A stretch of 48,698 nucleotides of DNA from Candidatus Altimarinota bacterium (GTDB lineage Bacteria; Patescibacteriota; Gracilibacteria; BD1-5; UBA2023), in the NCBI GenBank assembly GCA_024709505.1, contig JANJWP010000012.1, positions 1 through 48,698 on the forward strand. Direction: 5' to 3'. The notes under the pieces were generated by a model. The model was not told the origin of the DNA. It saw only the letters and a program-made list of their open reading frames with translations, and made no database searches. The position numbers and the translations under genes are program-made. Positions within the stretch are counted from its first letter, which is position 1, and every line of letters begins with the position of its first letter. Positions 18,587 to 37,138 of this stretch are shown piece after piece.

Positions 18587-19126
18587 ATGACGACGCAAAA
18601 CAAAACCAAAAGCTTCGCGGAACGCCTCGTCCGGCATTTCCAGAAGCACGGCTTTCCCGACGTAAGCGAAGCGGTCGTTCTCCATGTCCGGACTTCCGGA
18701 AACCTGGAATACGAAACGGTTTCGGCCGAATTCATCCATGCCGAATCCCAAGGCGTGGCGATTCCGCTCGCGCGGCATTTCGAATTCCGCTTCATCGAGT
18801 GTTTTTCGGAAAGTCGGACCGAACAGGAAATCCGCGAGAAATTCCAAGCGGACTTCGAACCCAACTTGCGACGGCAGTTTCCGGAACTGTTTTTCGAGAA
18901 GAAAAACTACCTCTTCGACGAGAACGCCTCCGGAACGAAATACGACGTCGCCATCCGCATCGGACGAAAAGGTCCCGACAACGTCGCCAAAATCGTGCTC
19001 CTCAACGATCCCGGAGCGTCGTTCGGCGAATTCTTCGACCGGCAGATGAAAACCTTGGACGAGTGGAGCGAAATCTGCGGCGGCCTCCAGGCCGCCGTCG
19101 GAAAACTCGGCTTGCTCCAAATCTAA
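18587..19126 (+). CDS. Hypothetical cytoplasmic protein with a strong ribosome-binding site
   Basis: A protein of 179 residues, charged, with no membrane segment and no TGA codon. The start is set by a near-perfect Shine-Dalgarno AAAGGAGGT (18573-18581) five bases before the ATG; most genes here have none. I do not recognise a family. Visible features are an N-terminal amphipathic helix (SFAERLVRHFQKHGFPDVSE) and alternating beta-strand-like stretches (AVVLHVRTSGNLEYETV). A strong terminator follows, so with its own promoter it looks like a single well-expressed transcription unit inside the nucleotide cluster. Confidence 0.72.
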   Translation: MTTQNKTKSFAERLVRHFQKHGFPDVSEAVVLHVRTSGNLEYETVSAEFIHAESQGVAIPLARHFEFRFIECFSESRTEQEIREKFQADFEPNLRRQFPELFFEKKNYLFDENASGTKYDVAIRIGRKGPDNVAKIVLLNDPGASFGEFFDRQMKTLDEWSEICGGLQAAVGKLGLLQI

Positions 19127-34520: not shown

Positions 34521-35927
34521 TTATTTCGCCCGGTAGCGAACGAACGAGCCGACGCCCACTTCGTTCGAATCGGCGGAAAGCACGCGCGAAAAGGGAATTT
34601 CTTCGTATTCGTCGATTTCGGGAGCCCGGATTTCGCGCCTGACGATGACGGTCTTATCAAGCACGTCCATGACGTAGCCCGAGAATTCCTTTCCACGATC
34701 GGCCCGATCAAGTTCGTCGTAAACGCCCGCCGCGACCCTTCAAAGCTCGTCCACCCGATTCCTCGCGACTTCTTCGTCAACCTTGCCGGACAGCTTCGAA
34801 GACGACGAAAGGGGTTCGTCGTGATATTGGAAAAGTCCCACGCTTTCGAACCGGTTGGATTGGACGAATCCAACCAAATCAGCAAACTCGGACTCCCCTT
34901 CTCCCGGAAAACCGACGATGAAACTCGTGCGGATAAACGCGCCCGGAAACTTGGATCGGATAGCCGAAAGCATCGAATCGATGTGTTTGCGATCGTAAAA
35001 CCGACCCATTTTTTTTAAAATGTCCGGATGCGAATGCTGGAAAGGGATATCGAAATACGGCAAGAATTTGGAGAATTTCGAAAGTTCGTCCAAGTGCGAA
35101 AGCGTCAACACGTCGGGATAAAGGTAAAAGACGCGGAAGCGGAAATCGCCGGGGAGGGAGTCGATTTTTCGCAAAAGTTCCATGAGCAATGGTTCGCCCC
35201 CGGAAAGATCGGTTCCGTAGCGCGTGGTGTCCTGCGAGATGATTTCGATTTCGCGGATTCAGGAAGCCGCCATGGTCTCCACCTCCTTCAGCACGTCTTC
35301 AATTGGACGGGATTTCTGCTTTCCCCGGATTTTCGGAATGATGCAGAACGTACAGGAATTGTCGCATCCCTCGGCGATTTTCAGGTATTCGTAGCGGAAC
35401 GGGGCGTGCATGTACGCCCGAACTTCGTCGCCCTTCCATACGAACGCCGATTTTCCGGCCGAGGCCGAAGAAGCGACCTTGTCGAGGTATTCGGAAAGCT
35501 TTCCTTCTTTCGCTTGTGCGAGGGCATTTTTCAGTTTGGCAACCCCTGGTTTTCCCAAAAGCGGCGAATCGCCGAAAAGCATTTTCTCGATGTTTCCATA
35601 ATCGACGAACGAGAGTATGGCATGGAGATTTTTGAGCGAAGAAAGGAAGGCGTCGTCCTTTACGGAAACGTAACACCCCATGAGGACGACCTTTTTTCCC
35701 ATTTCGTCATAATGACGGAGGGTGGCTTCCGATTCTTCGCGGGCCGACGAAAGGAATCCGCACGTGTTCACGAGGACGTATTCGGCCTTGGAGTCTTCTG
35801 GATCATCGAAATATTCCATCGGAATCCGGTCGGAAAATTTCAAGATTTCGCCAATGGCGAATTCGAGATCGACCAAATTTTTAGAACAGCCAAGATTGAC
35901 CGAAGAAAAGCGGAAGGAAGCGGACAT
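34521..35927 (-). CDS. rimO: Ribosomal protein S12 methylthiotransferase RimO
   Basis: A protein of 468 residues from ATG 35927, with TGA-coded Gly at 35259 and 34740. The N-terminal UPF0004 domain has SVNLGCSKNLVDLE, NTCGF and MGCY, the three Cys ligands of the auxiliary iron-sulfur cluster. The radical SAM core has EGCDNSCTFCIIPKIRG and GIREIEIISQDTTRYGTDL (QDTT-YG-D is typical of RimO as opposed to MiaB). A C-terminal TRAM-like domain ends VGSFVRYRAK. It methylthiolates an aspartate in ribosomal protein S12. No Shine-Dalgarno sequence is visible. Confidence 0.95.
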
Positions 35928-35983
35928 GGAAGAAAAACGTAAGAACGGGCCGGAGTATAGCGTTTTCACGCGTTTCGGCAATG

Positions 35984-36010
35984 AAAAACCCCGCGTCGAA
36001 GCGGGGTTTC
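35984..36010 (-). terminator. Intrinsic terminator of cheV
   Basis: On the minus strand GAAACCCCGC (36010-36001), a 6-nt loop and GCGGGGTTTTTC. It begins 27 nt after the TGA at 36037-36039, which matters for how that TGA is read. Confidence 0.88.
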
Positions 36011-36036
36011 AAGAACGCCTCCTCCTTTCGAAGGCG

Positions 36037-37005
36037 TCAACGCAAAAGCGCGTGGAGGTTTATTTTATCGATCAAGTCCTGAGGGTTTCCCTTATCGGCC
36101 GCGTCATTGGCACCGAGTTCCGCGACGATTTTCCGACGGTTGTCGTCAAGCATTCCGCTGTAAACAAGAATCGGAAGTCCTTGGAACGAGGGGTCAGAAC
36201 GAATCTTACGAATCAGTCCTTCGCCCCCCATTCCGAAGTTCATCTCCAGATCGGTGACCACCAATCCGGCGTTTTCGGCGCCGATGCTCCGCAGGTGCCC
36301 CCAAAGATCTTCCGGGGTCGAGAAAACCTGCGCGTCATGGATTGCGGCCTGTTGGAAGATTCTTGCCGCCTGTTTTCTTGCGGTATTGGAGTCGTCCACC
36401 AAAAGGATTTTCCGGAATTTTTTCGAAGCGATCGACTGGACCGTCGCAAGACGGTTTTCGAAATGCTCGGGATTGAGATCGGAAACCAGTTGGTCAAGAT
36501 CGACGATGTCAACGAGCGCCCCCTTTTGAGGACCCGAAAGGATTTCAGCCGCCCGCTCGGACCGTCCGCCCGAATAGAGCGGATTGGAACGGAGGTCGTG
36601 CATTTTCCAATCCCCGGGTTTTACGGTGAAAGGATCGGGGGACGATTTCGCCAGGAACGCCATGGAATGACTTCCGGCCATCACTACGACGTAGAGGTCG
36701 TATTCATCGTGCGGAACTCCGTACATCCAGGCCCGGAGATCAACTGCGGCAACCAGGTTCCCCCGGTGGGAAAAGGTTCCGTGGACGACGCCGCTGGAAC
36801 CCGCCCTTCCCACTGAAACCATGGAATCGCGGATGGATTGGGCATACCGGCAGATTTCTTCGGTACGCAAAACGTTAATGGCCAGGAACTTGGTCCGACC
36901 CGCGTCATCGAGGACGCGGAAACAGAGAAGCTCCATATTGGCGCCGTCGGTTACGGTTTGGTCGCCCGCGCCATCGTCGTAGCGCGCAAGGACACTTTGG
37001 GTCAT
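36037..37005 (-). CDS. cheV: CheV-like chemotaxis protein (CheW domain plus receiver domain)
   Basis: A protein of 322 residues if the TGA at 36037 ends it. The N-terminal CheW-like domain (about 10-165) couples receptors to kinase. The C-terminal receiver has KILLVDDSNTARKQ (acidic pair), VVTDLEMN (phospho-acceptor Asp), LPILVYSG and AADKG (Lys). A Shine-Dalgarno AAGGAGGG (37019-37012) six bases before the ATG sets the start. If TGA is Gly here as elsewhere, the frame runs 52 more codons, through a strong terminator and into rimO, to TAA at 35881. With no internal TGA and a strong Shine-Dalgarno sequence, it looks like a gene taken from a standard-code bacterium. Confidence 0.85.
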   Translation of the reverse strand: MTQSVLARYDDGAGDQTVTDGANMELLCFRVLDDAGRTKFLAINVLRTEEICRYAQSIRDSMVSVGRAGSSGVVHGTFSHRGNLVAAVDLRAWMYGVPHDEYDLYVVVMAGSHSMAFLAKSSPDPFTVKPGDWKMHDLRSNPLYSGGRSERAAEILSGPQKGALVDIVDLDQLVSDLNPEHFENRLATVQSIASKKFRKILLVDDSNTARKQAARIFQQAAIHDAQVFSTPEDLWGHLRSIGAENAGLVVTDLEMNFGMGGEGLIRKIRSDPSFQGLPILVYSGMLDDNRRKIVAELGANDAADKGNPQDLIDKINLHALLR

Positions 37006-37138
37006 GGGATTCCCTCCTTCTGAAAACGAAACTGTGAATGAACGGCTCGTGCCAAAGCACTCTACCGAAAAGCGGCTTTTTACAAGTCGGTTTCCGGACT
37101 CGTCCTTCTCCGCGCAAAATCGAAGGCACCTTGACGTC

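Follow-up and report, generated by a model that had tools for sequence, protein, structure and literature searches.

The gene at 36037-37005 of the window, on the minus strand, encodes a CheV-like protein and closes with TGA in a genome that reads UGA as glycine. It raises the question of whether a TGA can be the end of a gene in such a genome, or whether the codon is glycine and the reading frame continues. The window is the whole of one contig (C4, 48,698 nt) of the genome under study, G000; its congener is referred to as G001. Comparison of gene ends within and between genomes indicates that this TGA is very probably the true end of cheV, standing in the slot of a stop codon and not encoding a glycine within an evolved tail.

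Genetic code and release factors

G000 uses genetic code 25 (UGA=Gly). It belongs to the Gracilibacteria and is a draft of 1.17 Mb in 33 contigs, 98% complete, with a GC content of 53.6%; the relatives matched in a scan for beta-CASP are mostly named Candidatus Gracilibacteria. Genes were called under code 25 and terminators predicted with our own scripts, using neither Prodigal nor RNA data. The 975 genes called contain 1,373 in-frame TGAs, a frequency of 4.1 per 1000 codons or 5.3% of glycine codons, and at 174 of 213 aligned positions a TGA of G000 lies opposite glycine in the G001 orthologue. A tRNA with the anticodon UCA is encoded at C27:50920-50998, adjoining tRNA-Gly(GCC), and is present in 50 of the 59 genomes of the order. 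The assignment of UGA to glycine has been validated by proteomics in BD1-5 bacteria (PMC4032931), and prfB is missing from BD1-5 genomes (PMC6851277). The TGA share of glycine codons in G000 drops steeply with codon adaptation, being 11% in the bin of the least adapted genes and 1.4% in that of the most adapted, and many long core-like genes are without any TGA.

A profile search with PF00472 found one protein in G000, an ordinary RF1 whose PxT codon motif is intact, and RF2 was found neither in G000 nor in 58 relatives. Nearly all of the relatives have one PF00472 protein, whereas classmates outside the order mostly have at least two, and RF2 is therefore truly missing in the order. G000 encodes a tmRNA, with the tag APSFAFAA, and an SmpB candidate; tmRNA-SmpB is the only known route of peptide release found to be encoded. 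Under code 25, TGA is expected to be absent from gene ends, but nine ORFs in G000 and six in G001 were found to end with it.

The cheV locus

The features of the locus are as follows.

36037-37005, minus strand: cheV-like gene with CheW domain and receiver, ATG to TGA, 322 residues (Pfam, tblastn)
36037-36039, minus strand: TGA in the probable stop slot of cheV (receiver end, terminator gap, class pattern)
37013-37019, minus strand: Shine-Dalgarno sequence AAGGAGG of cheV
36015-36037, minus strand: extra hairpin between cheV and the terminator, from the A of the TGA (-12.1 kcal/mol)
35986-36009, minus strand: Rho-independent terminator hairpin 3′ of cheV, followed by a T run (9-pair stem, -15.2 kcal/mol)
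35881-36039, minus strand: would-be 52-residue tail and TAA under TGA=Gly (negative coding score)
35981-35954, minus strand: promoter-like site upstream of rimO (promoter-like match)
34521-35927, minus strand: rimO-like gene downstream of cheV (UPF0004 and Radical_SAM matches)

The product has the two domains of a CheV protein, a CheW domain barely above threshold (23.8 bits, cut-off 23.5) and a clear receiver (Response_reg, 43 bits). The receiver match stops at residue 315, seven residues before the TGA, and the C-terminus reads LHALLR; the sequence-only reading, which took the domain to finish naturally at this point, was right. It had also correctly placed the onset of the terminator (AAACCCCGC-TTCGAC-GCGGGGTTT, 36009-35986) 27 nt past the TGA, with no TAA or TAG in any frame between. 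Read with TGA as glycine, the frame gains the 52 residues that had been calculated (Gly and 51 more), crosses the terminator, shares 47 nt with the start of rimO (ATG at 35927), which is read in a different frame, and closes at TAA 35881-35883 inside rimO. The cheV mRNA, ending at the terminator, would then be a non-stop message, as had been foreseen. The called rimO-like ORF itself has internal TGA(Gly) at codons 206 and 379. The extra hairpin was considered as a signal for UGA and rejected: it is strong at cheV but is no feature of the other TGA-ended genes.

A foreign origin of cheV is plausible. No full-length relative was detected in the 58 relatives or in 380 genomes of the phylum (about 440 in all), which gave receiver-domain matches only. 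The best full-length matches, in a plasmid collection searched with tblastn, are proteobacterial chemotaxis proteins, of Cupriavidus, Salinivibrio and Vibrio, with about 23% identity. This low identity lends no support to the further proposal that cheV arrived recently, and neither does its composition, which is typical of the genome in codon usage (coding score percentile 42, surprisal percentile 79) and in GC3 (0.643, against a genome median of 0.637). No other CheW-domain match was obtained in the 98% complete genome, and neither CheA nor CheW was found. As the sole CheW-domain protein of G000, CheV is without a CheA partner, though a TGA-ended gene for a methyl-accepting chemotaxis protein (MCP) exists. 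C26 and C16 carry MCP-like genes despite the missing CheA and CheW, and cheV is an orphan adaptor without a kinase.

TGA-ended genes form a class in front of terminators

All of G000 and 285 kb of G001, about a third of that genome, were screened for code-25 ORFs running through terminators of -12 kcal/mol or stronger. Among 19 such ORFs with non-coding-like tails, 14 carry a TGA in frame no more than 12 codons away from the hairpin, where about one is expected; the same count in the two other frames gave 3 and 0. The excess is significant whether TGA is expected from codon usage (P=3e-15) or at 1/64 (P=1e-7). The five other ORFs mostly reflect internal hairpins in coding sequence or a TGA slightly farther off. 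What had been read as a singular case is one of nine in G000, the other eight being genes for an MCP, DapD, a beta-CASP protein and PyrE, two unnamed genes and two weak ORFs; six further TGA-ended cases were found in the 285 kb of G001.

Strong terminators behind TAA or TAG number 169 in G000, and the share of TGA among terminator-flanked gene ends is approximately 5% in G000 and 10% in G001. The gap between stop and terminator has a median of 18.5 nt for TGA and 16 nt for TAA and TAG (P=0.55). Tails past the TGA are mostly unconserved and have coding scores like those of non-coding DNA. Most members of the class stand alone as one-gene units, each with a terminator of its own, and a strong Shine-Dalgarno sequence is frequent among them. 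The 15 sites showed no clear base-context signature around the terminal UGA, and no sequence or hairpin signal distinguishes it in the class. In the final 30 codons of genes flanked by a terminator, TGA occurs 10 times in 3660 codons, against 84 in 18030 (2.7 versus 4.7 per 1000, P=0.13). Two convergent genes of G000, on C27 near 135760-135790, have a common palindromic terminator whose loop, CTAG, provides the TAG stop for both.

Orthologues exchange TGA for TAA or TAG

The TGA of the MCP gene aligns with the TAA of its homologue in G020, and that of the beta-CASP gene with the TAG of the homologue in G010. The exchange also runs in the other direction: G001 genes on L193 and L181 are TGA-ended and their G000 orthologues end with TAA at the same place. 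One such swap involves a gene of the window.

18587-19126, plus strand: unnamed gene with Shine-Dalgarno sequence AAGGAGG, TAA-ended; the congener orthologue is TGA-ended at the same residue

In the congener, a terminator follows immediately after this TGA. At 30 distinct ends an orthologue stops where its counterpart reads on, and in 4 of these a TGA lies exactly at the stop position, with about 0.1 expected. One codon is therefore found both as sense and at homologous gene ends, the pattern of a context-dependent stop.

The pyrE and beta-CASP genes and one unnamed gene have a TGA end in both G000 and G001, whose orthologues have a median identity of 71%. The tails of pyrE and of the unnamed gene are unrelated between the two genomes; those of the beta-CASP gene differ right after the TGA and share some sequence farther on. 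These three pairs, which retained their TGA ends while diverging, do not fit a recent arrival. Beyond the genus, where counts rest on single genes, TGA coincides with the homologous end, or adjoins it, in beta-CASP of G018, G020, G025 and G026, in pyrE of G014 and in dapD of G036, and in some of these genes a TAA follows the TGA at a distance of about 11 codons. When short loci of relatives beyond the genus were scanned under strict criteria, a single further terminator-crossing case emerged.

Internal TGA, Shine-Dalgarno sequences and ancestry

The sequence-only reading had pointed to the lack of internal TGA in cheV, unlike native genes. The lack is real, but for a single gene it is not unusual (P=0.23), as among the 429 G000 genes that encode 300 aa or more, 117 (27%) also have none. 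It becomes significant only for the TGA-ended class. In the nine G000 ORFs, none of 240 glycine codons is an internal TGA, against an expectation of 13.5 from size-matched genes (P=2e-4) and of 10.3 when codon adaptation is matched as well (P=1.2e-4). As the effect persists after this matching, high expression was rejected as its cause. Taken alone, the TGA-ended genes of G001 show no significant depletion.

The strong Shine-Dalgarno sequence noted at cheV, AAGGAGG, was confirmed, and by our own definition a strong sequence precedes just 49 of 928 genes in G000. Over G000 and G001 together it occurs in 9 of 15 TGA-ended genes and in 21 of 210 genes with TAA or TAG and a terminator (P=1e-5); when the presence of an own leader was also matched, the figures in G000 were 5 of 9 and 15 of 118 (P=0.005). 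Approximately 78% of the called starts in G000 have no Shine-Dalgarno match of 3 nt or longer, and the strong-Shine-Dalgarno minority is an odd gene set.

In TGA-rich relatives, in which TGA makes up 25-80% of glycine codons, dapD and the MCP, beta-CASP and pyrE genes have zero or almost zero TGA in many genomes, with 0/42, 0/35 and 0/44 glycine codons as examples. The GC3 of these TGA-poor copies is often above that of their neighbours. In rf1, obgE and other genes of the same relatives TGA is closer to expectation, and more distant copies of beta-CASP and pyrE do contain it. TGA-free loci of the four families are L079, L081, L082, L083, L229, L269, L271, L119 and L121. The TGA-free families are candidate transfers across the code barrier, and the pattern suggests that these same families were acquired more than once from donors with the standard code. 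The standard-code ancestry that had been suggested for cheV thus fits the class in its lack of internal TGA, its strong Shine-Dalgarno sequences and its TGA-free families in TGA-rich relatives.

How translation might end at a terminal UGA

The explanation that we rank first, tentatively, is that the UGA ends are inherited and that tmRNA-SmpB releases the product. The TGA-ended genes would descend from standard-code donors, some of them long ago, and would have retained the UGA stop after entry into a lineage with tRNA-Gly(UCA) and without RF2. The ribosome would either stall at the terminal UGA, or insert glycine and read on, for some 20 codons at most, until it reaches the mRNA end defined by the terminator, and tmRNA-SmpB would free it from the non-stop mRNA. 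The two parts of this explanation differ in strength: standard-code ancestry is probable, and release by tmRNA-SmpB, although the route is encoded, is slightly less likely than not. Comparison of sequences gives the stop-slot position, the specificity for TGA, class membership, the absence of RF2, and the tmRNA with its SmpB candidate; from there we infer the donor origin and the route of release.

Standard-code ancestry accounts for both the specificity for TGA and the missing internal TGA. The long persistence of TGA ends is harder to reconcile with it, since a change from TGA to TAA needs only one mutation and yet the three G000/G001 pairs keep TGA across their divergence; a harmful stop in the beta-CASP, pyrE and unnamed genes would be expected to have been mended. 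Strong-Shine-Dalgarno genes occur in G001 as frequently as other genes, and cheV is ordinary for the genome in codon usage and GC3, both of which also count against the explanation. As TGA ends persist, either non-stop translation with tmRNA rescue is cheap, or UGA still ends translation.

The latter alternative comes second, and we consider it rather unlikely. UGA would have a dual meaning, encoding glycine within genes and acting as a true stop, perhaps an inefficient one, at some gene ends close to the 3′ end of the transcript, without RF2; the release would fall to off-target RF1 or some other factor. It agrees with the swaps between TGA and TAA or TAG at homologous ends, with TGA ends kept across the genus in front of unrelated tails, with a terminator gap equal to that of an ordinary stop, and with a slightly lower TGA frequency over the final 30 codons. 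That 3′ depletion is not significant, however, and the terminal UGA carries no distinguishing sequence or hairpin signal. The single PF00472 protein is a normal RF1, leaving no UGA release factor, and an RF1 with an altered codon motif was rejected on the same evidence, its PxT motif being normal. In the proteomics of another BD1-5 population, no peptide was specific to the version in which UGA is a stop (PMC4032931).

Plain glycine at these sites, with harmless C-terminal tails, is improbable. The hairpins would be leaky or opened by the trailing ribosome, and the TAA or TAG downstream would be used. The alignment of internal TGA with glycine and the relatives with a TAA shortly beyond their TGA would suit it, but the tails are mostly without conservation or coding character, other sense codons should be found equally often at such ends, yet TGA predominates, and the missing internal TGA is left unexplained. 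Random stop-loss mutation, assembly error or contamination is very improbable: one transition turns TAA into TGA and the genome is a 33-contig draft, but TGG, CAA and CAG would be expected as often as the predominant TGA, on which ground random stop loss was rejected, the same ends recur in independent genomes, and the genes flanking cheV on its contig carry internal TGA(Gly), for which reason contamination was rejected.

Comparison with known systems

In its internal UGA=Gly, its tRNA(UCA) and its lack of RF2, G000 resembles code 25 as described for Gracilibacteria and Absconditabacteria (PMC4032931; PMC6851277; PMC8629427). The difference lies in a minority of its genes, which carry UGA where a stop belongs and reach the terminator without meeting a backup stop. 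A limited literature search turned up no description of genes ending with UGA in any code-25 bacterium, and context-dependent stops are undetectable by Codetta (PMC8629427).

Context-dependent stop codons are known in ciliates, for example Condylostoma (PMC4967479), where, as here, a codon is sense inside genes and also sits at their ends near the mRNA 3′ end. In the ciliates eRF1 reads all stops, and ribosome profiling backs this (PMC4967479); in G000 there is no known UGA factor, about 5-10% of terminator-flanked ends are UGA, and the evidence comes from comparison. Code-11-compatible phages of Gracilibacteria also have genes without in-frame TGA, with TGA possibly a stop, in a code-25 host, but other stops lie close behind their TGA (PMC10746230), and such backup stops are mostly missing in the chromosomal class of G000.

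A further parallel lies in ribosome rescue. The reading frame of E. coli arfA meets a terminator or hairpin before a stop, giving a non-stop mRNA and a feedback on ribosome rescue. The TGA-ended class has the same order of terminator and stop, and a non-stop mRNA would be the outcome if UGA is read as glycine, but in G000 the arrangement is common to many unrelated genes and always arises through TGA.

Implications

Code-25 annotation would give false tails to TGA-ended genes. Stop-codon reassignment is usually described as complete after the loss of RF2. If UGA ends persist and work, then either RF2-free termination exists in bacteria, or trans-translation routinely finishes proteins; as a third option, genes from standard-code donors long survive with a broken stop. 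A dual meaning of UGA, if true, would be a bacterial counterpart of the context-dependent stops of ciliates. Each of these options bears on how genetic codes change and on how genes move across code barriers.
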